Source of the DNA: Xestospongia bergquistia
Lineage: Eukaryota > Porifera > Demospongiae > Haplosclerida > Petrosiidae
Assembly: GCA_963965975.1 (NCBI GenBank)
Contig: OZ014419.1
Span: 6,280,150-6,344,149, forward strand
Reading direction: 5' to 3'
Length of the DNA stretch: 64,000 nucleotides
The position numbers and the translations under genes are program-made. The first letter of the stretch is position 1, and every line of letters begins with the position of its first letter. Positions 3,001-64,000 of the stretch are shown piece by piece. A model generated the notes under the pieces. The model was not told the DNA's origin and made no database searches. It saw only the letters and a list, made by a program, of their open reading frames with translations.

Positions 3001-5021
3001 CATCACCTATCTTCGCCAGTTCGTGCTGAGTTACCTTCGTCCTCTCTCTGTCCTGTCCCAGTACTTATAGTTGGGTCTCATTTTGATCTCCTGGTTGATT
3101 CACAACGAAGTGAAGTTATAAGTCAATTTGAGAACTGTATTCGTGAGTTATCGACCAAATTTCATTCTTCAGTTGATGTCATACCTCAGTTATTTCCAGT
3201 CAATTGTCACAAACCAAACAGCTCTGAGATTAAACATCTTAAAGAACAAATAACTGCTGTACGCATTACAGATTTAGAGGTATTGTAGATGCACACACAC
3301 ACATCAATATATCATGACTTGACATTTCTTTTTGTACACAGAACCAGCTTTTGTATCCAAGGATATTTGAGAAAGTAATAAAAAAGATTGAGTCTTTGAA
3401 ACTACAGACACCTAATACTAAAGTAAACCACAATATTGTACATGAATATACAGTGTTACTCTAAATTGTAGGTGATGAAATTTAATGAAATGTGTAGCCT
3501 GATTAAAACTCACATCAATCAACTTGTCTCTGATCGGCAAATTACATATATTTTAAAGTGTCTGTCTCAAATAGGAATGGTAAGACTACAATTTATAAAT
3601 GTGTTGTTATGAATCTACAAATATATATTAGTTTGTCAAACTTATTTCATCGTCTCTAGATTATATACATTGAACATGGTGCACTCAATCAATGGGTCTT
3701 TATTGATCCATCCTGGTTATGTCAAGACGTATTGGGACAAGCCTTAGCTCCACCTACCTATCCCTCCTCACTTCTCACAAGCTATCAAAGTCACATGTTA
3801 ACAGAGAGCCAAATTACATCAAAATTGGAGGTCTGTACTGATCGGTATTTTACCTGTCTAGTCCTCGATCTTCTACACCAATTTGAAGTGTGTCATAAAT
3901 CTCGAAACAACGATGTTTACCAATTTCCTTCCTTTATCACTAAGGAAATGGACGTAGCTGATGATAGATGGAGAGTGGGACCTCCCTTTGTAGCGTACAT
4001 AGGACGTCGACTGTCGTGTGCTGACAACACAGATTTCTTCCCTCCTGGCTTTTTTCCTCGACTACAAGTTCAAATTTGTTCATTATCTTCACCTAAAGAC
4101 CCAATCCATCTTTATCGTAACAGTCTTATAATTGATGCTACAAAAATGCAATGTCAGGTCAAATTATCACCAGATAACCGATCTATTGACTTCATTGGGA
4201 GAGTCACTGATCTCTATGCAGCCTCAAGTTGTCTCCAAATGATTGATCACATTCAGAGCTTAATGGCTACACTTAGTCGCCAACTCTGTCCCTCTGTGTT
4301 TTTTCAATGGAGTATCCTCAGTGCTAAGAACCTTCAAGACCACTCCCCTTCTCTAGAGGCCTATTCTGTGACTGACATTATAGAAGCTAGTCATCAGAGT
4401 AAAGTTTTGTGGAACAACACATTGAGGTGTTCAGAATATGTTGATGATCTTATGTATATGGGAGACGAAAAGTTGAAAAAGAAGTGTGCTGGTCGAGGAG
4501 CAAAGGTGACCTTTTTGCATGACGAAATATTTGAGAAGTTGGAAATATTGTTATCTGATGATCAGGAGCAAGCAGTAAGTTATAATGTATACATGTACAA
4601 ATATCTGATGTGTGTATTAGTTACATGTGTTATGTGATACAGTTAATTTACACTAATTTGTAATGTAATTTGAAAGGGCATCGCCCATGGATTGTTGACT
4701 AGTGGTTACACTACTCGTGAATTCATGGGAAGAGACATTACATTGTCAGCATTTATTGCTTGTAGCATGAGTTATATTACGTGTATATCATTATAGGGAT
4801 GGAAACAGTTAGCTAAACACCTTAATCTCTCAGAGTACATTGAGTTACTCAAAGATCACAGTGAGCCTGCTAAAAGGTTGATTCTCAAATGGGGAGAGAA
4901 ACCACGCTGGACTGTTGATAGTCTGTTGTATGCATTACAAGGTATCAATCGTAAGGACGTCTATAACTTCATCCGAGCTAAAACAGATACAAAATACACT
5001 GAGACAGAGTGTTCTAAGTAA
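1..5021 (+). CDS. Ankyrin-Roc-COR-death domain protein (ROCO family, DAPK-like), 5' partial
   Basis: This is the 3' part of a spliced gene whose start lies left of the window. Exons read by eye are about 21-116, 391-492, 898-1005, 1097-1195, 1282-1386, 1888-2022, 2120-2203, 2341-3279, 3342-3422, 3472-3579, 3660-4574, about 4677 onward, and 4797-5021. The early exons encode ankyrin repeats, one per exon (GHTPLHMACFHDN, GWTPLHHAARVGN, GKTALHYAAQHG). The exon at 2341 opens a Roc GTPase with a P-loop (CGPPDSGKTS) and a switch-like WDFSGD. A low-complexity serine/proline insert and a COR-like region follow. The last exon is a death domain (GWKQLAKHLN, ILKWGEKPRWT, LLYALQGI). This order matches DAPK1-type ROCO proteins, which act in cell-death signalling. 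A kinase domain, if present, would be upstream and is not visible. The junction between the exon near 4677 and 4797 has no obvious phase-compatible GT donor, so that join is unresolved. Confidence 0.85.
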
Positions 5022-9638: not shown

Positions 9639-12600
9639 ATGATGTCATTTAGTCTAGCACTGTTTGTAATTGTTATTTCAACACTTACCACTGCTGAACC
9701 ACTTTCTTCACATATTGTTTCAATTAACACAAGTGATCAAGGTTATGTAGTGGTAATGTATCAATACAAAATAACTTGGTTCTTAATTTGACACAGAGGA
9801 ACTATGTACTGTACAATATGACCTTTTGTCTTATTGGAAATGTCAGTAATATTATATTAACAGGACTCACTGATGGAAAATCATCAATTAAATGTTTAAA
9901 AAATGGAAATTCCTCCTCAACTACTGGTTTTGGGTTTGTTAATATATCAAGTATTGCTTTAGAAAATTTGGAGTTCATTGGATGTGGAGCAACAATAAGA
10001 AAACCAGCTGTGACATTCTTCAATAATACACACCCACATTTAGGATACAAACAGAAAGCTTTGCTTGTATTTAACCATTGCTACAATATAACAATACAAC
10101 ATGTTAATATTTATAGTTACATTGGATATGCTGTATTGATGCTGAATCCACTTTCCTCATCATTAATGGATCATGTTCTAATTTCCTATGGAACTGGTGC
10201 TAGTCACTGTACTGATTCTGGTATGTTTGCTTGTGCTGGTTGTGGTATAGCTATAATATTTAAAGATACTGAACATACCTCTCCTTATATGACACCTGTT
10301 AATGTCGTATTGTCACAGTCAACTCTTTCTTATAACTTCAATTTTATACCAGATGTACCACCATTGACTCTAATAGGACATGAGATATGTACACTTCCTA
10401 TAGTTGGTGCTGGTGGGTTAACTGTACTGTATAACCAGTCTTATGTGGCTAAATTTGAAACTCAGAATACTACCTTTGGCTATAATAGTGGAACAGTAAC
10501 AGGAGTCTTACTAGTGTTATTTTATAATGGCATGATGAATTCTCAATTTTCACTAAAAGATGTAGATGAATATAATGGAGGTATTATGCCAACAACTAAA
10601 CAAATTGGTGGTCTATGTATTACTGTTATCTCCATCTTGTGTCACACATGTTATTTAATAAACACCACAAATGTATGGACACCAATTACATTCAATAACG
10701 TGAAAACAGTGCAAATTGCATACTTTAATATAGAGATGCCTTACATCAAGTATGATCAAGGAATTTATGTAAATATTTTTGAATTATGCTGTGCAAAATC
10801 CATTAATATATTCCTAAAAGGGGTTAAATGTAAAACTTCTGGCTCATGTCTTTACGCATTTGTGATGGATCAATTTCCAAGCTACAAAGAAAGCAACATC
10901 TCTATTGTATTAGAAGATACTGAAGTATATTTCAGTTTCAATAAGTATATTGGTTATGCACTGTATTCTACAGTTCCATCTTTGATGTTAATAAACTGGA
11001 ATGACATCTTTGTTAGAGGAAATAGCAATTTTCAAGAGAGTAAGTCAGCAACAATTGCAGTATATCACAGCAACCTACATATAATAGGAAATGTATCCTT
11101 TAAAAACAACAAGGCAACTATAGGAGCTGCCATTCAACTTTACAACTCATTCCTTATTCTCCAAGAACCACTAACTGCTACATTCCTTAACAACAGTGCT
11201 TTGTTATATGGTGGAGCTATATATGCTGATAATGTAGTCCTCCCTGGTCATAGTAGATGTGCTATACAAATTAATACCAACAAAACAAATCTAAACAATT
11301 TAACTATCACTTTGAAATTTGAAGGAAACACAGCAGGACTTGCAGGAAATAGTATTTATGCCACTCCTCTCTACAATTGCTCCTTCCTCTACTCACAAAA
11401 TGACTTTAAACCAGTCCACTTTGACTGGAAATCAATCATACACTTTGATCCACCAAACTATCATAACAATCAACTAAATCAAATCTCTTCTCAACCAGTC
11501 AAAATATGTTCTTGTCAATTTGATCCTACAAAAAATGAAAGAATCTCAATATACTGTTCAATATTACAAGATATTACTCATATCATTAACACTTACCCTG
11601 GTAAGACAATAATCACATCACTTTGTGCTGTTGATGATTCTGGTAACATTGTTTACTCTCCTGCTGTAGCTACTATTGATAATGATTATATTAATCATGA
11701 AAAGCTCTCTCCAAATATTATATATTTAAAACAAGGACAAACACTAGTACCTCTCTCTGGTAGTAACTGTACTCAAATCAATTACAATGTTCTCAGTAAA
11801 CTAAATGAAATCAAACATGGAGTATTAAATATTGCAACACCAGGCAATCCACCATCTTGGTCAGCTGAAATATATGTCTATCCTTGTCCAATGGGGTTCA
11901 TATTAAATGAAGGTGAGTGCGTATGTAATAGCTTTATCACTGATATTTCACCTACAACAATATGTAACATCACTACAAACACTATTTCTATATCTTCTGG
12001 TCAATGGTTGGGTCATATATTATCTGATAACAAGAGTGATTTAGGATTTGCCTCTGTTTGTCCTCCTGGTAACTGTAAGACTGATACTGTACTTGTCAAT
12101 GTGACAGACCCACTCTCTATTTGTGAGTCCAGTAAGACAGGTGTTCTCTGTGGACAATGTCAACATAATATGAGTGTTGTATTTGGTAGTACAGAATGTA
12201 GACCATGTTCTGATCTGGGGTTAATTACAATAGTGGGATATGCTCTATCTGGTCTGTTACTGGTAACAATTATGCTTGCATTACCTCTGACTATATCAGA
12301 AGGACCATTAGCTGGTATCATAATAGCTATGAATATCACTTCTGTTTCAACTATTGACTATTTGGATAACAACAATTGGTTTGTATACACTGCTAGAGTC
12401 TTTGTTTCTCTCATGAACCTTAATCTAGGTTTTCCAATGTGTTTATACAATGGAATGACACCAACTGTTAAAACTGGTATACAATTTATATATCCAGTCT
12501 ACTTGTGGATTTTAGTAATAGGATTCATCATATTTAGTCAATACTCAACTCAAGTCTCTAACAAAACAGCAAGTTACTCTGTTCAAGTCTTAGCTAGTCT

Positions 12601-13336
12601 CATTCATCTCTCCTTCTCCAAAGTCCTCATCACTTGTATAGACATCATAGCTTATGTTCCTGTTCGTACAGGACAAGACGAAACAGTTATAGTGTGGTAT
12701 GGTGATGGTAATGTTAACTATCTCTCTAGTCCTCAACATATTGTTCTGTTTACTGTAGCTGTGACAAGTTTCTTGTTGTATATTATACCATTTTTAGTAT
12801 TTGTTACTTTGGGTAGATATTGTATGAGATGGAGATGTGTTAATAAGTACTTGCGTCCATTTCTAGAGGCTTTTCAAGGTCCATACAAACAAGAACAAGG
12901 TTACTGGTATGGAATGAGGATGATAACTGTTGTATATGTTTATTTGATGTGGGCAGTCTTTAGAGGATACAATATTAACTTAATGCTGTTTATGCAACTA
13001 ATATCAGTTATTATATTATGCCTCATTCAAACATCTATCAAACCATTTCAAAATTCAATATTAAACCACATTGACTCATTTTGTATAGCAATGTTAATAT
13101 GCCAGATCCTGTCAGCTATTGTGTTTGGTGGTAGGTATTACTGGTTATCTTATATAATGGCTTCATACATCTATGTTGTTGTTATTGTTTTTTTTGGTGT
13201 TATAGTTTGTCAATGTTGGGAAAAGTGTAAATGCAAGTTCAGAAAAGAGAGAAGCCATGATCATGGTCATGTGATTATCCCATCAGATGAAGAAGATGAT
13301 GAAATGAGACAAGCTCTGATAGCACTTCAAGATTAA
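9639..13336 (+). pseudogene. Receptor-like beta-helix/multi-TM gene, copy A, frameshifted near the start
   Basis: The gene begins with a signal peptide (MMSFSLALFVIVISTLTTAE) that matches copy B. After codon TSDQ at 9740 it lacks ten bases (CTGTGGTACT) present in copy B. The frame then runs into a stop near 9789, leaving about 50 residues. From about 9776 the homologous frame is open without interruption to the stop at 13334-13336 (about 1,180 residues), so the damage looks recent. That large frame has the same parts as copy B: beta-helix ectodomain with many N-glycosylation sequons, a cysteine-rich knot, about nine hydrophobic helices and an acidic tail. It may be a fresh pseudogene, a protein using a downstream start without a signal peptide, or a sequencing error. 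Confidence 0.7.
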
Positions 13337-14515: not shown

Positions 14516-15308
14516 CAGTAGCTGTTTATGTCAGTTGTATTATCTACAGACTATACTTTGCTTAGTTGTTCTTCATGACAAGTACAACTGTTAATTAAAG
14601 AGCAATCAATTTCATTGTTTTGTTACAATGATATTGTAGTTGTATAAAATTAATTTAACATTTCTAGTTACATAACTAGTACTATGTGTATGTTTGTATA
14701 TGAAAAATTCTTATTTTATATTGAATCACTTTATATTGTGGTATACTGTAACTAATAAACAGATCCCTATAAAGACCAATTAAAGTCATGTTGTGGAAAA
14801 TGTTCAAAGAAAAAGAAACAGTTATTGTACGTATTGAGTCTATGTTGAAGAGGTGCCCCCTATTGGAGTCATAGTAGATAAAAATAATATTGGGAATTTA
14901 ATGTCAATTTTCTTTATATAAAACTATGATCCATCTTTATTCATGTACAGAGAAGAAAACTACAAGAATTATAGATCAATCCTACATGATATGTTCATGT
15001 TCTGACATTGATAGTTTTATAGATATTAAAACAATTAAGATGCCATTAAATGACATAAGTAATTTATTGTTGCTTAAGACAAACTTGTCTGTTTATTCAT
15101 AACATTTATCTAAACATGAAAAAACATATATGAAGTATATATAATTGTACACGGAGATATAGTTCATATCAATCTGTATTGATGATTTTGACTTCATTGT
15201 AGATCTTTGGATAGTGTCTTGTGATTTTGTCATCACTTTATGTAAGTATAATTGTTATACTGCTATAGTTATAGATATTATTTTATAGTACTTGCAGGAT
15301 TAATAAAA
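14516..15308. other. Intergenic region upstream of copy B
   Basis: AT-rich, with no gene or family fragment recognised. It should contain the promoter of copy B, but no distinct element is seen. Confidence 0.4.
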
Positions 15309-18300
15309 ATGGTATCTTCTCATAGTCCAGTATTGTTTGTACTTATAATTGTTATTTCAACACTTACCACTGCTGAACCACTTTCTTCATATATTGTTCC
15401 AATTAACACAAGTGATCAACTGTGGTACTGGTTATGTAGTGGTAATGTATCAATACAAAATAACTTGGTTCTTAATTTGACACAGAGGAACTATGTACTG
15501 TACAATATGACCTTTTGTCTTATTGGAAATGTCAGTAATGTTACATTAACAGGACTCACTGATGGAAAATCATCAATTAAATGCTCAAAATATGAAAGTT
15601 CCTCCTCAACTACTGGTTTGGGGTTTGTTAATATATCAAGTATTACTTTAGAAAATTTGGAGTTCACTGGATGTGGAGCAACAATAAGAAAACCAGCTGT
15701 GACATTCTTCAATGATACACATCCACATTTAAGATATAAACAGAAAGCTTTGCTGGTATTTAATCATTGCTACAATATAACAATACAACGTGTTAATATA
15801 GCACATTATGTAGGATATGCTATACTAATACTCAATCCTCTTGCCTCATCATTAATGGATCATGTTAAAGTTCAATATGGATTTGGTAATAGGTACTGTA
15901 TTGATTTTGATATATTTGCTTGTGGTGGTAGTGGTATAGCTATAATATTTAAAGATACTGAACATATCTCTCCTAATATGACACCTGTTAATGTTGTATT
16001 GTCACAGTCAGCTCTTTTTTATAACTTAAATTTTATACCAGATGTACCACCATTGACTCTAATAGGACATGAGATATGTACACTTCCTATAGTTGGTGCT
16101 GGTGGGTTAACTGTACTGTATAACCAGTCTTATGTGGCTAAATTTGAAACTCAGAATACTACCTTTGGCTATAATAGTGGAACAGTAACAGGAGTCTTAC
16201 TAGTGTTATTTTATAATGGCATGATGAAGTCTCAATTTTCACTAAAAGATGTAGATGAATATAATGGAGGTATTATGCCAACAACTAAACAAATTGGTGG
16301 TCTATGTATTACTGTTATCTCCATCTTGTGTCACACATGTTACTTAATAAACACCACAAATGTATGGACACCAATTACATTCAATAACGTGAAAATTGTG
16401 CAAACTGAAAGGTATCATATAGAGATCGCTCAAATCAAGTATAGTCAAAAAATCTATCTAAATATTTTTGAAATATGCTGTGCAAAGCTCGTTAATATAT
16501 TCCTAAAAGGGGTTAAATGTAGAACTTCTGGCTCTTGCCTTTACGCATTTGTGAGAGATCAATTTCCAAACTACAAAGAAAGCAACATCTCTATTGTATT
16601 AGAAGATACTGAAGTATATTTCATCTTCAATAAGTATATTGGTTATGCAGTGTATTCTACAGTTCCATCTTTGATGTTAATAAACTGGAATGACATCTTT
16701 GTCAGAGGAAATAGTAATTTTCAAGACAGCAACTCACCAACAATTGCAGTATATCACAGCAACTTACATATAATAGGAAAAGTATCCTTTAAAAACAACA
16801 AGGCAACTATAGGAGCTGCCATTAAACTTTACAACTCATTCCTTATTCTCCAAGAACCACTAACTGCTACATTCCTTAACAACAGTGCTTTGTTATATGG
16901 TGGAGCTATATATGCTGATAATGTAGTCCTCCCTGGTCACAGTAGATGTGCTATACAAATTAATACCAACAAAACAGATCTAAATAATTTAAATATCACT
17001 TTGAAATTTGAAGGAAACACAGCAGGACTAGCAGGAAATAGTATATATGCCACTCCTCTCTACAATTGCTCTTTCCTCTACTCACAAAATGACTTTAAAC
17101 CAGTCCACTTTGACTGGAAATCAATCATACACTTTGATCCACCAAACTATCATGAAAATGAAATAAAACAAATGTCTTCTAAACCAGTCAAAATATGTTC
17201 TTGTCAACTTGATCCTACAAAAAATGAAAGAATTTCCATACACTGCTCAACATTACATCTTATCATTAACACTTACCCTGGTAAGACAATAGTCACATCA
17301 CTTTGTGCTGTTGATGATTCTGGTAACATTGTTTACTCTCCTGCTGTAGCTACTATTGCTAATGATTATACTAAACAAGAAAAGCTCTCTCCAAATATCT
17401 TATATTTAAAACAAGGACAAACACTAGTACCTCTCTCTGGTAGTAACTGTACTCAAATCAATTACAATGTTCTCAGTAAACTAAATGAATTAAAACATGG
17501 AGTATTAAATATTGCAACACCAGGCAATCCACCATCTTGGTCAGCTAAAATATATGTCTATCCTTGTCCAATGGGGTTCATATTAAATGAAGGTGAGTGT
17601 GTATGTAATAGTTTTATCACTGATATTTCACCTACAACAATATGTAACATCACTACAAACACTATTTCTATATCTCCTGGTCAATGGTTGGGTCATATAT
17701 TATCTGATAATAAGAGTGATTTAGGATTTGCTGTTGTTTGTCCTCCTGGTAACTGTAAGACTGATACTGTACTTGTCAATGTGACAGACCCACTCTCTAT
17801 TTGTGAGTCCAGTAAGACAGGTGTTCTCTGTGGACAATGTCAACATAATATGAGTGTTGTATTTGGTAGTACAGAATGTAGACCATGTTCTGATCTGGGG
17901 TTAATTACAACAGTGGGATATGCTCTATCTGGTCTGTTACTGGTAACAATTATGCTTGCCTTACCTCTGACTATATCAGAAGGACCATTAGCTGGTATCA
18001 TAATAGCTATGAATATCACTTCTGTTTCAACTATTGACTATTTGGATAACAACAATTGGTTTGTATACACTGCTAGAGTCTTTGTTTCTCTCATGAACCT
18101 TAATCTAGGTTTTCCAATGTGTTTATACAATGGAATGACACCAACTGTTAAAACTGGTATACAATTTATATATCCAGTCTACTTGTGGATTTTAGTAATA
18201 GGATTCATCATATTTAGTCAATACTCAACTCGAGTCTCTAACAAAACAGCAAGTTACTCTGTTCAAGTCTTAGCTAGTCTCATTCATCTCTCCTTCTCCA

Positions 18301-19016
18301 AAGTACTCATCACTTGTATAGACATCATAGCTTATGTTCCTGTTCGTACAGGACAAGATGGAACAGTTGTAGTGTGGTATGGTGATGGTAATGTTAACTA
18401 TCTCTCTAGTCCTCAACATATTGTTCTGTTTACTTTAGCTGTGACAAGTTTGTTGTTATACATTATACCTTACATAGTATTTGTTACTTTGGGTAGATAT
18501 TGTATGAAATGGAGATGTGTTAATAAGTATTTGCGTCCATTTCTAGAGGCTTTTCAAGGTCCATACAAACAAGAACAAAGTTACTGGTACGGAGTGAGGA
18601 TGATAACTGTTGTATTTGTCTATTTGATGTGGGCAGTCTTTAGAGGATACAATATTAACTTAATGCTGTTTATCCAACTAATATCAGTTATTATATTATG
18701 CCTCATTCAAACATCTATCAAACCATTTCGAAGTTTAATATTAAACCACATAGACTCATTTTGTATAGCAATGTTAATATGCCAGATCCTGTCAGCTATT
18801 GTGTTTGGTGGTAGGTATTACTGGTTATCTTATATAATGGCTTCATACAACTATGTTGTTGCTATTCTTTTTTTTGGTGTTATAGTTTGTCAATGTTGGG
18901 AAAAGTGTAAATGCAAGTTCAGAAAAGAGGCAAGCCATGGTTGTGGTCATGTGATTATCCCACCAGATGAAGAAGATGATGAAATGAGACAAGCTCTGAT
19001 AGCACTTCAAGATTAA
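15309..19016 (+). CDS. Receptor-like protein: beta-helix ectodomain plus multi-TM domain, copy B
   Basis: An intact single-exon gene of 1,235 residues. The ATG at 15309 is chosen because it begins a clear signal peptide (MVSSHSPVLFVLIIVISTL) that aligns with copy A. Residues about 25-720 form a long extracellular region with Asn-rich repeats typical of right-handed parallel beta-helices (NNKATIGAAI, FLNNSALLYGGAIYADN) and many N-x-S/T sites. A cysteine-rich segment (CPMGFILNEGECVC, GVLCGQCQHN, STECRPCSDLG) precedes about nine hydrophobic helices starting at GYALSGLLLVTIMLALPL. The C terminus is a cysteine-rich, basic then acidic tail (CWEKCKCKFRK, DEEDDEMRQAL). The topology suggests a cell-surface receptor or sensor. 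I do not know the ligand or signalling partner. The protein is not a classical GPCR by any motif I can see. Confidence 0.85.
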   Translation: MVSSHSPVLFVLIIVISTLTTAEPLSSYIVPINTSDQLWYWLCSGNVSIQNNLVLNLTQRNYVLYNMTFCLIGNVSNVTLTGLTDGKSSIKCSKYESSSSTTGLGFVNISSITLENLEFTGCGATIRKPAVTFFNDTHPHLRYKQKALLVFNHCYNITIQRVNIAHYVGYAILILNPLASSLMDHVKVQYGFGNRYCIDFDIFACGGSGIAIIFKDTEHISPNMTPVNVVLSQSALFYNLNFIPDVPPLTLIGHEICTLPIVGAGGLTVLYNQSYVAKFETQNTTFGYNSGTVTGVLLVLFYNGMMKSQFSLKDVDEYNGGIMPTTKQIGGLCITVISILCHTCYLINTTNVWTPITFNNVKIVQTERYHIEIAQIKYSQKIYLNIFEICCAKLVNIFLKGVKCRTSGSCLYAFVRDQFPNYKESNISIVLEDTEVYFIFNKYIGYAVYSTVPSLMLINWNDIFVRGNSNFQDSNSPTIAVYHSNLHIIGKVSFKNNKATIGAAIKLYNSFLILQEPLTATFLNNSALLYGGAIYADNVVLPGHSRCAIQINTNKTDLNNLNITLKFEGNTAGLAGNSIYATPLYNCSFLYSQNDFKPVHFDWKSIIHFDPPNYHENEIKQMSSKPVKICSCQLDPTKNERISIHCSTLHLIINTYPGKTIVTSLCAVDDSGNIVYSPAVATIANDYTKQEKLSPNILYLKQGQTLVPLSGSNCTQINYNVLSKLNELKHGVLNIATPGNPPSWSAKIYVYPCPMGFILNEGECVCNSFITDISPTTICNITTNTISISPGQWLGHILSDNKSDLGFAVVCPPGNCKTDTVLVNVTDPLSICESSKTGVLCGQCQHNMSVVFGSTECRPCSDLGLITTVGYALSGLLLVTIMLALPLTISEGPLAGIIIAMNITSVSTIDYLDNNNWFVYTARVFVSLMNLNLGFPMCLYNGMTPTVKTGIQFIYPVYLWILVIGFIIFSQYSTRVSNKTASYSVQVLASLIHLSFSKVLITCIDIIAYVPVRTGQDGTVVVWYGDGNVNYLSSPQHIVLFTLAVTSLLLYIIPYIVFVTLGRYCMKWRCVNKYLRPFLEAFQGPYKQEQSYWYGVRMITVVFVYLMWAVFRGYNINLMLFIQLISVIILCLIQTSIKPFRSLILNHIDSFCIAMLICQILSAIVFGGRYYWLSYIMASYNYVVAILFFGVIVCQCWEKCKCKFRKEASHGCGHVIIPPDEEDDEMRQALIALQD

Positions 19017-28116: not shown

Positions 28117-31950
<3,834 letters not shown>

Positions 31951-36235: not shown

Positions 36236-36344
36236 TTTGACTGCTGCTTTTTTTCTAAAATTCCACTGATCAAGAATTTGAAGAGATTAGAGTCTAAAAG
36301 GTTAAAAACTAGAATCTAGTTTTCTATTTAACGCACACCTTACC
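36236..36344. promoter_or_regulatory. Bidirectional promoter interval RBMX2/COG3 copy 1
   Basis: Only 109 bases separate the two divergent start codons. An almost identical interval sits at 41786-41894 in the second copy. No TATA box is evident in a convincing position. Confidence 0.55.
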
Positions 36345-36725
36345 ATGTGTGCTGAGAAGATGGACAAGTTACAATCCAAGTCTATCAGGGATCGTCTTAG
36401 TCTATGGGAGGGGTCTTTGGCACCTTTGAGTGACAGTGAAAAGCAGGGTTTTATGGAATTGGGCGCAATTGCAGCACAGAGACCACTCCCACCTGAAGTA
36501 CATAATGAAAATAAATGTAATGATCTATTAAATGTATACTTGATATCTAAGTTCATATATTAATGCATTTATATTTATTGATACGTATATTATATTCCTA
36601 GTTACCATCTGGTGAAGTACCAAACAAAAGATATGTTAATGACACAGAGCCATCAGAAATTGAAGAGAAAATACAAGAAATTAAAACGACACAAGATGTA
36701 GGTTGGATAAAGCAAAAAAACAAGG

Positions 36726-36778
<53 letters not shown>

Positions 36779-38415
36779 AGTTGCTTTTATGGTTTGATGA
36801 AATGGATAATGAGATATCGGCAGATAAAGATAAAGTATACAGGTAAGGAGTTCAAAGAGTAACTCCCTATTAATTAAATTTAATTGCCAACATACAATAT
36901 TTTCAAATCTCTATCTTCCCAGGGACTATTGCAGTCATCTTCATCATTATTGCAGTCAATGTGAAGAGATGGTACAACAGCTGACAATATCACTGGATGC
37001 TTTGAGCGATATGACTGAAAAACATCATTTTGTCTCTCAGAAAACTCAAGCATTACATGATGCATGTGAACAACTAGTTCAAGAACAGGTATTGTGTTTC
37101 ATCATTTGTTTAACCTTATGTTCATTTATTTATTGTAGAATCATTTAGCTCAAGTTGCTGAAGGTATTTCGAGTAGGTTGGCTTACTTTACAGAATTAGA
37201 GCAATTGGGTCAAAAACTAAATGCCCCTTCATTTTCGATCTCATCTGATACCTTCCCTGTTTTGTTAGCTCGACCGGATGAGTGTATTTCATTTATTGAT
37301 ACTCATGTAAGTATTGAGTGAATTATATTGAATTAATGTCCAATGGTGCTTGTATAGTCTGATTAAGCACCACTTATACTATGACACTATGTGTATCATT
37401 GGATACCATAGCACTGATATATCCCTCTCTCCCTCAGCCACATTACAAGGAGTCCCTCATATATTTAGCTCGCTACAGACAACAACTCTCAAGAGCATTA
37501 GCTTCTATAAAACAACAAGTTACACAGACACTTAAATCCACTACTCAAAATGTCCTGAAACAACAGGTGTGACATACACATGTATCCTTCTCTCCATATT
37601 TCCTTGCTTTCATTGTTTGTTTGTTTGTTCTCCCATTCAATTGACTAGTAATCTTTCCTTTCTTAGCAACCCAACTCACAGTATAGAGGTGTCTCTGAAG
37701 CAAACTATTCTCAATATTATGGCAAATTTAGAGCTTGTGCTCCTAAAATAAAGGTATTCATTTAATGGTCATATTTATTTGTATATTTATGTGTTATATA
37801 TCAAGCCTTTGATGAATGAAGTAGAGAGCAGAGCAGAAAAAATATCAGAGTATGTATACCATTACAGTATAATGCACAACTGTACTCCCCCCCCCCTCTC
37901 TCTCTCATTAATAGATATTCTACTATTCTTCATGATTGTCTTCAATGTTAGTATAATAATCATAGTATTAATATTGTGCATATGAATAAATGGAGAGATG
38001 ATGGAGTAAAGTGGAACATTAGTAAACCTTTTGTTCCCTTTAGGTTGAGATGATTGAAGAAGTTATTGAGCCTAAAGGTATATATTATAATATATTGTAT
38101 GTAATATATGTATCCTAGGAGAACAACTGTCAAGGTTTGGTCTCATTATTAAAGCTCTTTTGAGTGATATTCAACAGAGACTTGTGTTCAGAACACAGGT
38201 GAGTCCACGATTTAACTCAACATTTGAGTAGCTTTTATAAGAACTTTTGTATGATACTGTCACTTGTGTATGGAAGTCATTCTGTGCTAGGCTATTGTTG
38301 TATTTTGTTTCTCTAGCGTTTTATACAAACTGATATACGAGGTTATAAACCAGCGCCTGGTGACTTAGCTTATCCTGACAAGTTAATAGTAGCTGTAAGT
38401 ATTACACTATACTAT
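36345..38415 (+). pseudogene. COG3 copy 1, internally deleted and 3' truncated
   Basis: The exons match the complete COG3 at 41895-46052 almost base for base up to about 37950 ([40 protein letters not shown]). There about 530-550 bases carrying three exons are missing. The sequence resumes inside the following intron at about 37952 and includes the exons before [10 protein letters not shown]. Similarity stops at 38415, so about half the protein is absent. It cannot make a full COG3 subunit. Confidence 0.85.
36728..36779. repeat. (CT)n tract at a COG3 copy 1 splice acceptor
   Basis: The CT dinucleotide run leads directly into the CAG acceptor of the exon starting LLLWFDEMDN. It is matched by a longer run at 42283-42336 in copy 2. 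Confidence 0.9.
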
Positions 38416-41785: not shown

Positions 41786-41894
41786 TTTGACTGCTGCTTT
41801 TTTTCTAAAATTCCACTGATCAAGAATTTGAAGAGATTAGAGTCTAAAAGGTTAAAAACTAGAATCTAGTTTTCTATTTAACGCACACCTTACC

Positions 41895-42279
41895 ATGTGT
41901 GCTGAGAAGATGGACAAGTTACAATCCAAGTCTATCAGGGATCGTCTTAGTCTATGGGAGGGGTCTTTGGCACCTTTGAGTGACAGTGAAAAGCAGGGTT
42001 TTATGGAATTGGGCACAATTGCGGCACAGAGACCACTCCCACCTGAGGTACATAATGAAAATAAATGTAATGATCTATTAAATGTATACTTGATATCTAA
42101 GTTCATATATTAATGCATTTATATTTATTGATACGTATATTATATTCCTAGTTACCATCTGGTGAAGTACCAAACAAAAGATATGTTGATGACACAGAGC
42201 CATCAGAAATTGAAGAGAAAATACAAGAAATTAAAACGACACAAGATGTAGGTTGGATAAAGCAAAAAAACAAGGCACT

Positions 42280-42339
<60 letters not shown>

Positions 42340-45300
42340 GCTTTCATGGTTTGATGAAATGGATAATGAGATATCGGCAGATAAAGATAAAGTATACAGG
42401 TAAGGAGTTCAAAGAGTAACTCCCTATTAATTAAATTTAATTGCCAACATACAATATTTTCGAATCTCTATCTTCCCAGGGACTATTGCAGTCATCTTCA
42501 TCATTATTGCAGTCAATGTGAAGAGATGGTACAACAGCTGAAAATATCACTGGATGCTTTGAGCGATATGACTGAAAAACATCATTTTGTCTCTCAGAAA
42601 ACTCAAGCATTACATGATGCATGTGAACAACTAGTTCAAGAACAGGTATTGTGTTTCATCATTTGTTTAACCTTATGTTCATTTATTTATTGTAGAATCA
42701 TTTAGCTCAAGTTGCTGAAGGTATTTCGAGTAGGTTGGCTTACTTTACAGAATTAGAGCAATTGGGTCAAAAACTAAATGCCCCTTCATTTTCGATCTCG
42801 TCTGATACCTTCCCTGTTTTGTTAGCTCGACTGGATGAGTGTATTTCCTTTATTGATACTCATGTAAGTATTGAGTGAATTATATTGAATTAATGTCCAA
42901 TGGTGCTTGTATAGTCTGATTGAGCACCACAGATACTATGACACTATGGGTATCATTGGATACCATAGCACTGATATATCCCTCTCTCCCTCAGCCACAT
43001 TACAAGGAGTCCCTCATATATTTAGCTCGCTACAGACAACAACTCTCAAGAGCATTAGCTTCTATAAAACAACAAGTTACACAGACACTTAAATCCACTA
43101 CTCAAAATGTCCTGAAACAACAGGTGTGACATACACATGTATCCTTCTCTCCATATTTCCTTGCTTTCATTGTTTGTTTGTTTGTTTGTTCTCCCATTCA
43201 ATTGACTAGTAATCTTTCCTTTCTCAGCAACCTAACTCACAGTATAGAGGTGTCTCTGAAGCAAACTATTCTCAATATTATGGCAAATTTAGAGCTTGTG
43301 CTCCTAAAATAAAGGTATTCATTTAATGGTCATATTTATTTGTATATTTATGTGTTATATATCAAGCCTTTGATGAATGAAGTAGAGAGCAGAGCAGAAA
43401 AAATATCAGAGTATGTATACCATTACAGTATAATGCACAACTGTACTCCCCCCCCCTCTCTCTCTCTCTCTCTCATTAATAGATATTCTACTATTCTTCA
43501 TGATTGTCTTCAATGTTATGTCAGTCAACGTAAACTACTGTTATCTCCCTCTTTAGTAGTCTCATTAGAAGAGTTAACAACACATCATAAATCAGAATAT
43601 TGTACTTTAGTAAGTACTGATCTTATACTTGTCTAATGTATTCAATATCTTTGTAGGTAAGAGCAGTATGTAATTTGGTATCTCGTGTGTGTTTAGATGA
43701 GTATCAATTATATCATCATTTCTTTAGTAATTCCAGCAATGAATTGAAGTAATTTTCATTCCTGTGTCCTCGTTCCTAATCCTATTCTCTTATTCTCTTT
43801 CTCATTTTTAAAATCCTCATTTCTATTTTCGTTCTCATTCTCTTACCCTCATTCCTATTCCTTTCTATTGCCATATTCTTATTCTCACATCCTCATTCCT
43901 ATTCTCTTATCATCATTCCTATAGTGATCTAATAGAGACTCTTAGTTATCAGATGTATGATGCATTACGTCCTGTTGTAATTCACATTAATCACTTGGAG
44001 ACACTTACTGACCTTTGTACTGTCCTCAAGGTACATAATATTTAAATATAATAATCATAGTATTAATATTGTGCATATGAATAAATGGAGAGGTGATGGA
44101 GTAAAGTGGAACATTAGTAAACCTTTTGTTCCCTTTAGGTTGAGATGATTGAAGAAGTTATTGAGCCTAAAGGTATATATTATAATATATTGTATGTAAT
44201 ATATGTATCCTAGGAGAACAACTGTCAAGGTTTGGTCTCATTATTAAAGCTCTTTTGAGTGATATTCAACAGAGGCTTGTGTTCAGAACACAGGTAAGTC
44301 CACGATTTAACTCAACATTTGAGTAGCTTTTATAAGAACTTTTGTATGATACTGTCACTTGTGTATTGAAGTCATTCTGTGCTAGGCTATTGTTGTATTT
44401 TGTTTCTCTAGCGTTTTATACAAACTGATATACGAGGTTATAAACCAGCACCTGGTGACTTAGCTTATCCTGACAAGTTAATAGTAGCTGTAAGTATTAC
44501 ACTATACTATGATTATACTTATTATAATAAAGGCTGAAGCTCAAGCTACATCACATGGGTCTGAGGTTTTTTCAGATTCAGATTCAGTCTTTGATGCTAG
44601 TGGAACAGAGGTGTGTTAATGAGTACCAATGAACTTCTTTGTTATTTTTAAAACAAGAGTGAGGCTACAACTCCTGATACCAGTTCTACATTCTCAATTG
44701 GACGCAGACATAGGGGGCGTGGCCTCAATGAGCTCCATGCCATGTGGTACCCCACAGTGAGAAGGACATTGATGTGTTTGTCTAAACTTTATCGTTGTCT
44801 TGATGTGAGTTTACAGATTATCTCCAATAAGATTGCCAATGTGTTCATTAGCGTGCAGTATTTGAGGGTTTGGCACAAGAAGCATTGAGTGAATGTGTCA
44901 AGTCATTACTAGCGGCATCTAATGCTATTCATGCTAAAAAGGTAGAGTAGATTCCTTAGTCACAAATTGTACATGTAACTGTGGCATTTTCAGGGTGATA
45001 TCGATTCTGAGCTTTTTCTTATTAAGCATTTGCTAATTTTAAGAGAGCAGATTGCTGCTTTTAATGTTAATTTTTCTGTCAAGGAAGTCTACCTTGACTT
45101 CACCAAAACTAAAGGTAGTGCTACTTTTATGATACTGTTTTTTCAATGTTTTCATTTATTGTTTTTTAGCTGCTGCATTTAATTTATTGAAGAAACGATC
45201 ACGGATGTTTTCTTTGAGTAGCAATAATGCTTTTTTAGAGTTTCTTTTCGAAGGATTTCCAGAGTTAATTGAGACACAACTAAACTCTAAAAAAGTAAGT

Positions 45301-47782: not shown

Positions 47783-49249
47783 ATGATTATCTATAAGGAT
47801 CTCTTTACCGGTAAATCATATACAAATATACCAGTATACGCATCATTTGTCTTTCTGACAGGCGATGAGCTATTCTCAGACTCTTATAAAATTAGAATTA
47901 TCGATGATATCTTTTACGAAGTCGAGGGAAAGGTAAGCTATTTGTGCTCTAAATTGTGGCACAAAAATTTTAAAGGTACTTCCTGTCTGCAACACTAATG
48001 TGTGGTTATTAATATTGACAGACTTCCTGTTGGTTCATAACTTAGTTCTTAAACAAAGCAATGAGCATCAAGTATTGTTTTCCTAGTTTGAATAATAAAT
48101 GTCTTGTTTGTAACAGTAGGTTGTTTGTTAAGTGGACTCCATGTTTTTTTATTAATTGTGTTTAAGAAAAATTGAGTGTCTGTTCAATTATTTAGTTTGA
48201 ATGCTAAAGTCTGAAACAGGTACTAGTGTTGAAATAAATAGGACTATAATTAATTATTTGGTTGTTTGTAAGGCTCTTAACAATCCAAGGATATTATCTC
48301 ATCAGTTGAGAAAGTAACTAAGAATGAGTGTTCGCAGTTGGACATCAAATATGTCCACTTATTGTAATGCAAATATTCAAAACTAGTTCATTTAGCAAAG
48401 CAAATGTTTAAATATAAGGTATTATTATTTGATTCAGTGTTAATTGTCATTTTATAATATTAAAACTGGCTGTATGTACTTAAATCTTTAATAGCTTCCA
48501 TTATAATCTGTTCCTTTTAATTTAAGATGACAACAGAGACTGGAGGTATTGATGAGTCAAAGATTGGTGCTAATGCTTCAGCTGAAGAAGGAGCTGAAGC
48601 ACTTCAAGAAGAATCAGTAACACAATGTAATATTGTGACAGCAAATAGACTGCAAAAAACTGTATTTTCAAACAAAAAGGATTACCAGAATTCTGTTAAG
48701 GTAAAGGACATTGTTAATATTTAACCCCTAACTGACCAGTGATGATGTAAGCATTGAAGCTGACTTTGTCCAAATCTTTATTTTATTGTTTGCAATTCTT
48801 TTTTGTATTGTAAGGCAATTTTTGCTAAAAGGTACTCTTAAACTAGATTTTACTAACTATTTTGTGTCATGAAAAAGTACATGGAAACAATTAATGTTTT
48901 GTTATTTGTTTTATTTTAGATATACATGGGAAAAATTGTCAAACATTTAGAGGAAAAAAACCCTGATCGAGTTCAACCATTCAAAGATAGTGCTAAAGTT
49001 GCAATGAAAAAGGTAATTTCACATTGTCATGAATTGTTCAAGATAATACATTCATACATTTACTTTTAAGACCTCTCTGGTTTATAGGTATTTGATAACT
49101 ACAAGGATTTTGACTTCTATTATGGTGAATCTAATAACGATGAAGGTATGGTGGCTTTACTGAATTTCCGTGAAGATGGTCTTACACCTTATATGTTGTT
49201 CTTCCGGGATGGACTTGTTGAAGAGAAAGTTGTAAGTGACACAGTATAA
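47783..49249 (+). CDS. TPT1: Translationally controlled tumour protein
   Basis: Five exons (47783-47810, 47862-47932, 48527-48700, 48920-49012, 49088-49249) encode 175 residues; the human protein has 172. The start MIIYKDLFTGDELFSDSYKI matches TCTP, as do IGANASAEE, KDYQNSVKIYMGKIVKHLEE and GMVALLNFREDGLTPYMLFF. TCTP is an abundant cytosolic calcium- and tubulin-binding protein involved in growth and survival. The first intron is only 51 bases and stays open in frame, so retention would insert 17 residues. The C-terminal VSDTV differs from the family's short KC-type end and lies across a gtaagt, so the last codons are slightly uncertain. Confidence 0.95.
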
Positions 49250-49792
49250 TAACAATCCCTCTATCAAAAAAATGAAATTACAATTGTAAATCTGGAGCTA
49301 GGTTTAACCTTATTCTCAGTGATAAACCACACCCATTAAGAACTGATATAATTAGTAATGTATAGGTTATTGCCAAATCACAAGGTTTTGTTGGTACAGT
49401 ATGTGATGTTGAGAGCCGTAAGTCCAAAATGTCACATGCTATATTAGCACAAGATACAAGTGGTTGGACCACAATGCATCTGTCATGGCAACAGTTGTCA
49501 TGGTAGTGCTTGCCATGGATGTTATGAGTACTTGTTAGAGCATATATAGGCACTTGATAAATTCACTATGTTTTTATTTATTTATTTTTTTTAGTGAACT
49601 TCATTGACCATTTTGACAACAGCTGTAGAAGTCTTCTTGTTATTAATTATGACACATTTCATTATTTCATAATTATTATTATTATTGTTTGTATTTGTAA
49701 ATGAAAAGGCAAACTAGGAAATTCTATTATAACAACCACAAATCTAACCAGTAGCCACTATTATTCTACATTAGATGAGGTACAATTTGTGG
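49250..49792. other. Gap between TPT1 and the avidin-like gene
   Basis: No gene is recognised. The block at about 49597-49690 (ttgacaacagctgtagaagt onward) is repeated at 51290-51380. Confidence 0.5.
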
Positions 49793-50442
49793 TCACAGTT
49801 CATCACTGGGGCTTCTTTTTTCTCCACAGGAGTCAGCTGACTTGTAAAATGTATCTTTACCCACAAGGGTAGATTCCCAGTTATTGATTGGTTCAGTTTG
49901 GGATGTTAGGAGCCATGTTGTATAGATACGAATACCAGAAGTTGTTTCTTGCCATTGTCCAGACCAGGTAGTAGTTGAGTTAGCAGTTATGTCTTTATTA
50001 CGCCATGTTACTGCCCTACATGTATAAATGAAGATAGTTTAATAAATATAGATAGTTTATTAATTTGTAAAGAACCAAGTTTATGCTATCACTTTTACTG
50101 GTACATTTTATTGAGGTGAAATTTTTGCTCTCAACTATAGATGACTTTTCTTACCATCCCAATGTGCCTCCATTAATTGATCCAGTATCATATCTTCCTG
50201 CCAAATCATATCGATACACAGCATCACCAACAAGTGATTCATACCATCCATTCAACTGTCCAGCAGATACAGTTTCCTGGTATATGCACATAGTAGAGAC
50301 TAACTCATTTTTCCACTCTCCAGCAAGAAGATCAATATTTGAGGCTGAGGTGACACCAAAGATGGCAATAACTGCAATAAACCTGCAATAGTATTCATGG
50401 TATTTAAGTTTACAATATCTATTGTTTAGCTTACCAAATCAT
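49793..50442 (-). CDS. Secreted avidin/streptavidin-like biotin-binding protein
   Basis: Three exons (50435-50442, 50155-50382, 49793-50015) join in frame to 152 residues. Exon 1 is only eight bases. The N terminus MIWFIAVIAIFGVTSA is a signal peptide. The mature part aligns end to end with streptavidin: GEWKNELVS, LNGWYESLVGDA, YRYDLAGRYDTGS, LGWAVTWRN, ANSTTTWSGQW, IYTTWLLTS and NNWESTLVGKDTF. Residues equivalent to the streptavidin biotin contacts N23, S27, Y43, S45, W79, S88, T90, W92, W108, W120 and D128 are all present. N49 is replaced by Asp. Expected fold: an eight-stranded beta barrel, normally tetrameric. Probable role: biotin capture outside the cell, for example antimicrobial biotin starvation (inference). 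The introns and signal peptide argue that it is a host gene, not bacterial contamination. Confidence 0.9.
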
Positions 50443-52378
50443 ATTATTTCAATCAGTTTTGCTATTTTTTCAATATGAACTGTGGACAATGAAAAGACAC
50501 TAGTACAGTCAAATGTACTACTTGCTTATTATATAGACAATAATGGAGGAAAACCTATAAGTTCTAGTTTGGTTTGGATTTCCTTTTAAGTCACAATAGA
50601 TTCATTATAATTATTCAATTCTTTACCTTATTATATTATGATTACTCATGTCCTAAACCATCAAAGTGACAGAGGTACTCAGTTTATGATACTAAACTAC
50701 TGATCATCTGCTTTCTTATTACTCCTTTTCCTCCTGTACTCAATGTACCCAGTCTCTCATTATTAAAAGTGTTGAGACTAACTCTTTTACTTGTCCCTTC
50801 ATAAATATTAATAGCAGTGTATCCTTATATTGAATGTAAACTTCTCTTTGCATTGTGTGCTGACAATGCATTTAATGTTAACTAAAATTATTTAGAGCGT
50901 CAATTATTATTATTGGAAAAATTTATGAAAAAACATATTAACCAAAAATTGACATAATGATAATAATTAACTATCATATTATTTGTTCTGTCAATCTGAC
51001 ATTTCAAAACCAAACCAGACAATGAGAAGACAGCCCAGCCAAAAAGCACTCACTCACATAGATGATATGGTGGGGAATATTAAAACCTAATAAGTTCTGG
51101 TTTGTTTAATTTAGTATAGAAAACCAACCCATAAAATGAGAAGACAACCCTAGTTTGTTTGCAGTATCAATTGGGATTCCTGTTAAACCACAATAAATTC
51201 ATTTTTAATTTTATAAGTATTCTCCATCAATATCATTAATTAATTAATAATTACACATGTTCTAAAACATCAGTGACAGAGGGTACTCACTTTATTGACC
51301 ATTTGACAACAGCTGTAGAAGTCTTCTTGTTATTAATTATGACACATTTCATTATTTCATAATTATTATTATTATTATTATTGTTGTTGTTTGTATTTGT
51401 AAACGAAAAGGCAAACTAGGAATTATAACAAAAACCACAGATTTAACCACTAATATTTAACATGAGGTATATTTTTTGGTCACAGTTCATCATGTGTAAT
51501 TATTAATTAATTAATGATATTGATGGAGAATACTTATAAAACTAAAAATGAATTTATTATGGTTTAACAGGAATCCCAATTGATACTGCAAAACAAACTA
51601 GAGTTGTTTTCTCATTTCATGGGTTGGTTTTAAAGTAATAATTACACATGTTCTAAAATATCAGTGACAGAGGGTACTCACTCAGTTTATATTCTAAACT
51701 GCTTATATAGACAGGTACCAGCAGTCATGACATCATATGATGACATAATTCCTAATTATCTTTAGTACACCCATGATCTATTTAGGTTAACATAAGTTTT
51801 GTCTCGTATCTAAAGTATAGTCAACCTTATCATGACCCTCATCTGCTCTCATGTTGTCACTCCTTCTGTATTCAATCTCTCATCAATGACATTTCCATGC
51901 CAAACACAATATGTTCATTTTTCTGCCAGGCACACACAGCCATTTTATGAGCCAGACCCCATCAGTGTCAAATTACGTCTATGGCTAACAAAGTCACATT
52001 ATAGATAAGGTTTTTCATTTAATTAATTTTGACACCAATGGCTTGACATATAAAGGTGTCCTATAAGTGTTTTGCACCATGTGTCTTGCAAAAGATATCC
52101 TTGTGAAAATAGAGGGTCAGTAACAGGAAGTAATGCATTATGTCATCCCTGAGTTTAGCTATAGACAAGAGTGGATCACCTCAGCAAAAAGTTGTTTGTA
52201 ATTTCATCTCAGGAAATGATATTTTTGGAGTCTTGCAAACTGATTTTGGAAAGTCATTATTGTTTGAGATCCTTCCAATGAAATTTCATGAACTAATAGA
52301 TTAATGTTTTTTATGATGATAACATAAAACGGGTAAAATAAACACAATAATTGACATTTGGATAATATTTAACTACCA
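50443..52378. other. Repeat-rich gap between the avidin-like gene and RBX2
   Basis: Contains related repeat blocks at about 50545-50700, 51060-51290 and 51485-51690, including an inverted pair, and a copy of the avidin-gene 3' flank (51290-51500). No coding exon is recognised. Confidence 0.55.
51118..51645. repeat. Inverted repeat around a copied avidin-gene 3' flank
   Basis: About 51118-51265 (aaccaacccataaaatgaga onward) is the reverse complement of about 51490-51640. The loop between them (about 51290-51480) matches the sequence just 3' of the avidin-like gene (49597-49800), including the ggtcacagttcatca that contains that gene's stop region. Confidence 0.75.
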
Positions 52379-62216: not shown

Positions 62217-62905
62217 AATGCAAGCAAATCCGAAAGTGCGTGTGTTATCCCTGTCTTATGGATTGTGCAAGGAAGGATTTTCCTATAGCCATCATTAGCT
62301 TTGTGGTGAAAGTCTCCGGATCAAAGTCAATAGACTCTTTCTAGAAAATTTAATTACTAGCAAAGAAGACAGAGTTAGTAAATTAATTTCCTTCTGATCT
62401 AGAGAGGGCACTCAAAGCAGAAGGCCTTAACCGACATCAATTTCTTGACGTAGATACATCTTTCCTCTCAAGGTCTTATTTTCACATGGTTGACAAATTT
62501 GGTGTGGTGTGTTTCTAGTAAACTCAAAAACTTTATTTATTGAGTCAGAACAACAGCATTTTTTCCTGGCCATGGAAACCGTAAAGGATTTACTAACAGA
62601 TGCAGGTCATTCTTCCTATACCATTAAGATAGGTATGTCATGTTGGCAATACAGTTAACAAATGTATCACATGATTATTACATCATATGTTAACAATTCA
62701 CAGCTATAATTTGTTTCATCTTCAAGGACCCGCCACAATGTTTACTACTACCGGTTATTCCTCCTCAATACAGGCTGTTCATTTGGCTCGTCAATGTGAC
62801 TTATTAATATCTTGTGACATGGCAAAAGGTGTTACACTTGATGTTTCACTTATCACTAAGACTGGTCATCTCAAATACCCTTCAAAGTTTAATGAAGAAG
62901 ATTGA
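62217..62905 (+). pseudogene. Degenerate ketosynthase-like (PKS/FAS) region
   Basis: Pieces in order resemble a beta-ketoacyl synthase but do not form one frame. MQANPKVRVLSLSYGLCKEG (62217) sits where the N-terminal strand would be, but meets a TAG. HQFLDVDTSFLSRSYFHMVD (about 62437) resembles the FDxxFFGI region. ESEQQHFFLAMETVKDLLTD (about 62544) resembles DPQQRLLLE-x-TWEALEDAG. After a short intron, GPATMFTTTGYSSSIQAVHL and CDLLISCDMAKGV (62727 on) resemble the GP-x-DTACSSSLVAVH active-site block. The catalytic Cys is not there (Gly-Tyr), and about 60 residues between the blocks are missing. It could be a pseudogenised or non-catalytic domain. The assignment is by pattern only. Confidence 0.45.
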
Positions 62906-64000
62906 TGTGTCCACTGATCAATCCTATGTTGAATTAGTAAATGTAGAGAGAAGCTATCTCAACTCAAAACAGTCAGACATTGACAATAATTATTGGAATA
63001 AAGAATTTTCAACAATATCTCCTGATGTTAATCTATCAGTCCTTCCTAAAGCTGAGTCCACATGGAATGATTCCACAACATATAGAGCCAAGCATATTAG
63101 CAAAATTGTTCCTTCAAATACTCTTAAAGAAGTAGTCAAATGGTGCAATATTTTAGAGATAACAGAATTCCAATACTATCTGGCATGCACATCACTTGTG
63201 CTACAGAGATACCTTGGTGTCAATGAGATTACTCTTGCAATTCCAGTTAGCACTCGCACCGACATTTACCAGAATTCAGATGGGTCATTTGTAAACACTG
63301 TTCTTTTTAAAGTGAAAGTTGATTTAAACAAAACAATGAAAGAGTATGTTAAATCTGTCGCTAACAGTTGGATGGAGACACTTGCACACTCACAATATCC
63401 TCTCGACCGAGTAGCGGAAGCAGTATGGAAAGAACATGGAAAAAGTATCCACTCCTTTTGCTGTGTGATGTTCAACTACTATGCATCAAAAACAAAGCCC
63501 ACATGTGAGCTTAAAGTACATGCCAAGCATGCCAAAATGCCTTTAACATTAAATGTTTCACATTATGGTAACACAATAGAGGTTGTGTGTGAATGGTCAG
63601 CAGAGTTACTTGATGACAACATTGTAGGAAGGCTGTTTGATGGTGTCATTAGACTATATGATGTAGCATTAAATGTAGAGAATGACAAACTATGTGACAT
63701 TGATGTCTTGTCCCCACTTGAACATAAACTGCTGCAGTCATTCTGTCATGTCGAGTCTAGTCACCAAAAGACTTCTATACCGGTTCACAAAACATTCAAA
63801 GAGTACTCTACTATGTATCCAGATTCTATAGCAATTGTTTTCAATGATTTGACACTGACATACCGTCAACTCGATAATATATCCTCACAAATTGCTAATG
63901 AACTATATCAAAGAATAACTGACAGCAATGTTCTCAAAAGAAATCCTGTTGTCGTTGTAATGAAGAAAGATGAATATGCCATAGCTTCGATTTTGGGAAT
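62892..64000 (+). CDS. NRPS condensation (C-terminal half) and adenylation (start), 3' partial
   Basis: An open frame runs from the ATG at 62892 off the window edge, about 370 codons without a stop. It reads as the second half of a condensation domain: YWNKEFSTISPDVNLSVLP, ITLAIPVSTRTDIYQ, SFVNTVLFKVKVDLN, and HSQYPLDRVAEAV, which matches HQDYPFExLVE. The C-A linker follows (LSPLEHKLLQSF), then the adenylation start (FKEYSTMYPDSIAIVFNDLT, LTYRQLDNISSQIANELYQR, VVVVMKKDEYAIASILG). The first half of the C domain with its HHxxxDG catalytic motif is not visible upstream; the ketosynthase-like remnant is there instead. The N-terminal end and start codon are therefore uncertain. The base composition is like the neighbouring host genes. 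Confidence 0.75.
   Translation, partial: MKKIDVSTDQSYVELVNVERSYLNSKQSDIDNNYWNKEFSTISPDVNLSVLPKAESTWNDSTTYRAKHISKIVPSNTLKEVVKWCNILEITEFQYYLACTSLVLQRYLGVNEITLAIPVSTRTDIYQNSDGSFVNTVLFKVKVDLNKTMKEYVKSVANSWMETLAHSQYPLDRVAEAVWKEHGKSIHSFCCVMFNYYASKTKPTCELKVHAKHAKMPLTLNVSHYGNTIEVVCEWSAELLDDNIVGRLFDGVIRLYDVALNVENDKLCDIDVLSPLEHKLLQSFCHVESSHQKTSIPVHKTFKEYSTMYPDSIAIVFNDLTLTYRQLDNISSQIANELYQRITDSNVLKRNPVVVVMKKDEYAIASILG

Follow-up and report, generated by a model that had tools for sequence, protein, structure and literature searches.

A 64,000-nucleotide stretch of the Xestospongia bergquistia genome, referred to here as the window (C9:6280150-6344149 of a 146.5-Mb genome in 21 contigs), carries a host gene for a streptavidin-type avidin that keeps nearly all of the streptavidin biotin contacts and ends in the tetrapeptide SDEL. 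We favor, with a probability of about 0.5, the reading that this gene encodes a working host avidin directed to the endoplasmic reticulum (ER), where it would serve as a biotin trap or store, and that the avidin family to which it belongs stems from a single, probably actinobacterial-like acquisition.

The gene lies on the minus strand, and its three exons are predicted to be spliced into a reading frame of 459 nt including the stop codon, corresponding to 152 amino acids (Table 1). When the exon 2 frame is extended upstream, a stop is reached before any methionine, so a further upstream exon is required, and this exon is supplied by ATGATTTG ahead of the GTAAGC donor. The initial annotation had proposed three spliced exons, the first of only eight bases; its coordinates proved exact, the introns have GT-AG ends, and a paralogue on contig 2 shows the same layout. 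The avidin gene is a host gene with animal-type neighbors. Contamination, or a bacterial contig, is ruled out by the introns, the 7.5-Mb length of the contig, and the neighboring TCTP, Roc/Death-domain, and COG3 genes.

Table 1. Positions of the avidin gene elements and the convergent neighboring gene, numbered within the window
Feature	Position	Strand	Evidence or remark
Exon 1, 8 nt (ATGATTTG): M, I, first 2 bases of W	50435..50442	-	donor GTAAGC
Intron 1, 52 nt, GT-AG, phase 2	50383..50434	-	GTAAGC...TTGCAG
Exon 2: remaining signal peptide and first part of barrel	50155..50382	-	PF01382 match; own-genome search
Intron 2, 139 nt, GT-AG, phase 2	50016..50154	-	GTAAGA...ATGTAG; splits Trp-79 codon (TG/G)
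Exon 3: remaining barrel, Cys-142, tail ...SPSDEL, stop codon	49793..50015	-	PF01382 match
SDEL codons, C-terminal, KDEL-like ER-retrieval tetrapeptide	49796..49807	-	sequence; SDEL function PMC2556349
TATA-like box TATATA, starting 93 nt upstream of ATG	50530..50535	-	consensus match only
Two AATAAA poly(A) signals, 207 and 215 nt past stop	49573..49586	-	consensus match only
TCTP exons, convergent neighbor just downstream; 3' end approximate	48521..49249	+	Pfam TCTP 57.1 bits on 49088-49249; PDB 118 bits for joined exons

Elsewhere in the window, a DAPK- or ROCO-type gene (2299-5018, plus strand) gives Roc (35.6 bits), Death-domain (42.8 bits), and COR-like (21.5 bits, below cut-off) matches, with an ankyrin-like exon visible by eye upstream of it at about 805-1023; the presence of a Roc, COR-like, Death-domain gene speaks for an animal. 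The genome is compact and A+T-rich. A silicatein-like query gave 64 matches in it, and a loose motif search of 10 of these loci gave 10 hits, two of them at one place, all lacking the Ser of silicatein; comparison of TCTP with solved structures did not set animals apart from fungi. A 708-aa frame with seven ubiquitin-like stretches occupies 5216-7339 on the minus strand. Two long, paralogous, uninterrupted frames lie on the plus strand at 9737-13333 (1199 aa) and 15252-19013 (1254 aa); the latter begins like a signal peptide, and no Pfam family matches either frame above cut-off. Lipoxygenase exons are found at 28336-30103 on the minus strand (165 bits on one exon), and near-identical duplicated segments at 36305-37145 and 41855-42702 carry exons of a COG3-like gene (COG3_N, 39 bits, 36834-37145). 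Approximately 12 kb from the avidin gene, on this animal contig, a single frame of 934 aa encodes an NRPS-like module with condensation (72.6 bits), AMP-binding (176.5 bits), AMP-binding C-terminal, and PP-binding domains; it runs from 62808 to 64000 in the window and on to L063:958-3759 (C9:6342957-6345758).

To place the product, we compared it with family profiles and known structures. The 152-aa protein matches the Pfam Avidin family, PF01382, with 83.7 bits (E = 1.7e-23, curated cut-off 24) over positions 2-115 of the 116-position profile, in agreement with the earlier description of a signal peptide followed by a full streptavidin-type barrel. Avidin-family similarity, anticipated in the initial annotation, was likewise found in NCBIfam and the PDB: single-domain streptavidin chains score ≈86-91 bits among the best 60 of 163 PDB matches, and the NCBIfam streptavidin model NF047623 gives 106.8 bits, under its equivalog cut-off of 300. 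The product is an avidin of the streptavidin type rather than a true streptavidin. It adds a member to a well-known family that is on record from vertebrates, lancelet, sea urchin, and a hydrozoan. Its N terminus resembles a signal peptide, with a mean hydropathy of 3.07 calculated over residues 4-13 followed by small residues.

The biotin pocket is almost complete. At the 18 streptavidin positions that we take to be the biotin contacts, 17 residues are kept in a 28-row alignment, including the equivalent of W120, the tryptophan lent by the neighboring subunit. The sole change is N49D, and tamavidin 2 and the Amycolatopsis sacchari avidin likewise have Asp at this position. A previous count of 11 of 12 contacts, with only N49 changed to Asp, thus holds on this fuller list. 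Across the barrel, the protein is 50.0% identical to the streptavidin of S. avidinii (114 columns) and 31.2% identical to chicken avidin (112 columns), consistent with the view that the protein stands nearer to streptavidin than to chicken avidin, and the highest value, 51.8%, is to the S. virginiae protein.

Searching the host genome with the protein returned 12 exon matches that make up six copies: the window gene, a second on contig 2 (L005, C2:10424767-10425380), and a further four, all on contig 7; the Pfam profile by itself found exons of the window and contig 2 copies only. The contig 7 copies lie in a duplication with an offset of ≈15 kb, in which larger blocks are 87-98% identical. 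Four copies were treated as distinct (window, contig 2, C7a, and C7b), with C7b2 excluded as a near-copy and C7a2 read exon by exon. Intron 2 falls in the same Trp codon across the host copies. Intron 1 varies in position: it interrupts the signal peptide, in phase 2, in the copies of the window and contig 2, and it lies downstream of the whole signal peptide, in phase 1, in those of contig 7. An alignment of 149 residues gives 55.7% identity between the window copy and the contig 2 paralogue. The first exon of this paralogue is 14 nt long and likewise ends at the donor GTAAGCTA in phase 2, and its intron 2 interrupts the same codon.

The other host copies look damaged. In exon 3 of the contig 2 copy, a Ser codon of the window copy is replaced by an in-frame TGA, Trp-79 is changed to Tyr in the same paralogue, and the contig 7 copies are without most pocket residues; the contacts kept number 14 of 18 in the contig 2 copy, 7 of 18 in C7a, and 2 of 18 in C7b. 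Between the window and contig 2 copies, dN is 0.38 and dS, which is near saturation, is 0.97 over 148 codons. The parts of the contig 2 copy after and before its stop are similarly constrained (dN 0.36 and 0.39, respectively), so the stop looks recent, or may be a matter of assembly or haplotype. Tyr-79 and Ala-90 of this copy also occur in the second S. avidinii avidin (L033); the tree described below nonetheless groups it with the host copies.

An -EL ending is present in three of the four distinct copies, as SDEL in the window protein, NTEL in the contig 2 copy, and HSEL in C7b and its near-copy, and C7a is without a tail. Beyond this ending, the tails share almost only a Cys and differ in length. 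The PROSITE ER pattern, as we take it to read, fits the SDEL of the window copy only and not NTEL or HSEL. The host has a match to the KDEL receptor (98 bits), and its BiP ends in HDKDEL. The last three codons of the window copy sit at the edge of a local repeat: together with the 3' flank, they are copied at 51289-51492 on the minus strand with 81% identity, the sole further copy in the genome, and the edge bases there read HDEL-stop by eye. SDEL is reported to work as an ER-retrieval signal in HeLa cells (PMC2556349), and the same tetrapeptide is given as the motif that retains Minpp1 in the ER (PMC8890658). Retrieval of the window protein to the ER through SDEL can thus be inferred, and the initial description of the protein as secreted becomes doubtful, given this ending and the TEL and SEL endings of two distinct paralogues.

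Under the reading that we prefer, the signal peptide would bring the protein into the ER, where it would fold into an eight-stranded barrel and, judging from its sequence, bind biotin tightly, probably as a tetramer whose subunits each contribute a Trp to an adjoining one. The SDEL tail would be read by the KDEL receptor, and much of the protein would be retrieved to the ER or released slowly. The result would be a biotin trap or store within the secretory pathway of an animal seemingly without its own biotin synthesis. We know of no avidin that is kept there.

A pair of cysteines may add to this arrangement. All four distinct host copies have Cys-35 and Cys-142, whereas the pair occurs in none of the 24 further avidins in the alignment. 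If the strands are numbered as in streptavidin, residue 35 would point outward on strand 2 and residue 142 would come after the last strand, which makes a disulfide between barrel and tail plausible. The two residues likely form a disulfide tying the tail to the barrel. The disulfide of chicken avidin is located elsewhere.

As for the supply of biotin, an exon-by-exon search of the host genome for bioB gave no match, in a design that a much-split gene could escape; the control search gave a match in 13 of 14 genomes, all prokaryotes, 7 of them above cut-off. The absence of a host bioB match suggests that biotin probably comes from food or symbionts. In the sponge Xestospongia muta, one study attributes the biotin-synthesis transcripts to bacteria (PMC4412061).

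The main rival to an ER-directed protein is a secreted, biotin-sequestering one that starves microbes, deters grazers, or regulates symbionts, with the SDEL signal weak or masked. We regard this as a substantial possibility that stops short of even odds. The signal-peptide-like N terminus and the intact pocket suit secretion, as do the bacterial transcripts of X. muta. The known avidins of eukaryotes are described as secreted and two lancelet avidins as expressed as a response to bacteria (PMC8033661), and epithelial cells of an Avidin+ type occur at the tentacle bases of a hydrozoan (PMC11876637). The SDEL end and the -EL ends in three of the four distinct paralogues argue against secretion, and so does the zebrafish avidin knock-out, which is described as unchanged in resistance in one infection model (PMC13425791).

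To understand the origin of the family, we built a maximum-likelihood tree of 28 rows, comprising 22 bacterial, 4 host, and 2 eukaryotic reference sequences (tamavidin 2 and chicken avidin). From the 40 bacterial loci extracted, 18 were left out as near-copies (L014, L015, L016, L032, L035, L039, L042, L048, and L055), as wrong or partial frames (L046, L047, L049, L051, L052, L053, and L054), or as fused or two-domain proteins (L040 and L044). A tree of 22 rows was also computed without the fast host copies C7a and C7b and the distant bacterial rows L036, L045, L050, and L056. The 28-row tree unites the four distinct host copies in a single clade (100/99) and places it within the actinobacterial streptavidins plus tamavidin 2 (91/86, not starred); chicken avidin is placed elsewhere, beside an Anaerolineae MAG (81/86). 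Constraining the host copies to join chicken avidin costs 5.7 log-likelihood units and is not rejected by the AU test (p-AU 0.136); a sister relationship of the host copies and tamavidin 2 is not rejected either (p 0.196), and the tree itself does not join them. In the 22-row tree, the host pair is without a resolved position in an 18-row group (90/82) that also holds chicken avidin, the latter grouping with Gemmata, Rickettsiales, Anaerolineae, and two other bacterial rows (88/83). Here, the constraint of chicken avidin with the host pair costs 6.3 units and is again not rejected (p-AU 0.195).

A bacterial origin is thus favored rather than shown. The transfer proposed in the initial annotation is supported by the 28-row tree, but the 22-row tree does not place the host pair, and neither data set rejects a clade with chicken avidin. 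The accompanying proposal that the gene later gained a secretion signal is not needed, because a signal peptide is already present in the bacterial precursor L011. On our preferred account, one acquisition of a probably actinobacterial-like avidin gene would have been followed by intron gain and by duplication to six copies, after which the other copies would have lost parts of the pocket or gained a stop.

Avidins are sparse among the bacterial genomes sampled, with 1 of 396 genomes in the phylum of the Streptomyces center, 3 of 392 in that of the Gemmata center, 16 of 398 in that of the Rickettsiales center, and 2 of 400 in that of the Anaerolineae center, all counts including the center, a known positive. 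Among plasmids, 2 of 72,556 records carry an avidin, both from Streptomyces. In genome_contigs, 15 of 43 pattern-matched stretches were confirmed, in a search with two short patterns only that misses distant avidins by design. A viral or phage source was rejected: of 43 pattern-matched stretches of viral_contigs none was confirmed as a relative, and the phage records and PHROGs gave none either.

The competing account of the origin is an ancient animal avidin, passed down vertically and shared with the vertebrate avidins, that has stayed streptavidin-like through slow evolution; we judge it a real contender, if somewhat less probable than not. The unrejected chicken avidin clades and the loose position of the host pair in the 22-row tree leave room for it, and avidins are reported from a cnidarian, lancelet, and sea urchin. 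The sequence identities (31% to chicken avidin versus 50% to streptavidin) and the 28-row placement with the streptavidins speak against it. The introns can be read both ways. The zebavidin report gives exon lengths of 87, 211, 120, and 42 (PMC3811995), which put one intron just before the barrel and, if chain residue 1 is precursor residue 31, the second intron in codon 100, corresponding to Trp-83 of the window protein. This position is only 11 nt downstream of host intron 2, yet it is in phase 1, whereas the host intron is in phase 2 in codon 79, and the error of the mapping may equal that offset. The published lengths sum to 460, which is not a multiple of three, and a chain of 126 residues plus 30 and a stop needs 471; the sum is 11 short, so the mapping may be off by about the difference seen. 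The third zebavidin intron is absent from the host gene.

Three further readings concern the sisters, the tails, and the state of the window copy. First, an early-branching animal may have turned a bacterial streptavidin-type gene into an ER-resident family, with a full pocket and a KDEL-type tail in the window copy and sisters that no longer bind biotin and keep the tail for another ligand or role, a proposition that we consider doubtful. Second, the tail could be an intrinsic ligand that folds into the biotin site, the -EL being kept for that and not for ER retrieval. This is improbable: C-terminal peptides of bradavidin and of streptavidin C1 do enter the biotin site, as described in PMC3344845 and PMC7924230, and the host tail comes after the conserved Cys, but the tails share hardly anything beyond Cys and -EL, and two of the three tails are on copies with damaged pockets (14 of 18 and 2 of 18 contacts). 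Finally, that the window copy is itself a nonworking, degenerating member like the contig 2 copy is very improbable, since the exon 3 stop of that paralogue and the 7 of 18 and 2 of 18 contacts of the distinct contig 7 copies are set against a window copy whose frame is open, whose splice sites match the consensus, which keeps 17 of 18 contacts, and for which dN is lower than dS.

The window protein can also be compared with known avidins one by one. To the streptavidins of S. avidinii, its relatives, and A. sacchari, the likeness extends over the barrel (48-52% over 114 columns, nine rows), the 17 of 18 contacts, and the signal peptide; the barrel of the second S. avidinii avidin is 43% identical. 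Unlike streptavidin, the host gene has three exons on a host chromosome, Cys-35 and Cys-142, an SDEL tail, and Asp-49, the last shared by A. sacchari. Tamavidin 2 (PDB 2zsc) is eukaryotic, has Asp-49, and is 48.2% identical over 112 columns, but differs in the tail and the Cys pair; its source is an edible mushroom, as stated in PMC8033661. With the vertebrate avidins of chicken (1avd) and zebrafish (zebavidin, 4bj8), the host protein has the fold family, the signal peptide, and coding-region introns in common; theirs are genes of four exons, as opposed to three in the host, intron 2 may lie at another base, and identity to chicken avidin is 31%. Two invertebrate cases were compared by description only: the Hydractinia Avidin+ gene, an avidin-like gene (PMC11876637), and the avidin-like domain of sea urchin fibropellin (cited in PMC3811995). 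Avidin-like genes outside Bilateria are therefore already published, as the hydrozoan Avidin+ cells described in PMC11876637 attest. In the open-licence literature, no sponge avidin was among the matches listed. Of note here are the six copies, a tail of the ER type, a Cys pair confined to the host copies within the alignment, and the single intact pocket.

Even for vertebrates the natural role of avidins is unclear; zebrafish lacking avidin are described as developing normally and as showing no change in one infection test (PMC13425791). The six-copy family of this sponge offers a natural experiment on roles beside biotin binding: its host gave no bioB match, a single copy keeps its pocket intact next to decayed ones, and the tails are of the ER type. 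A small avidin with an extra Cys pair is also of biotechnological interest, and the window gene makes the keeping of an avidin in the ER directly testable.
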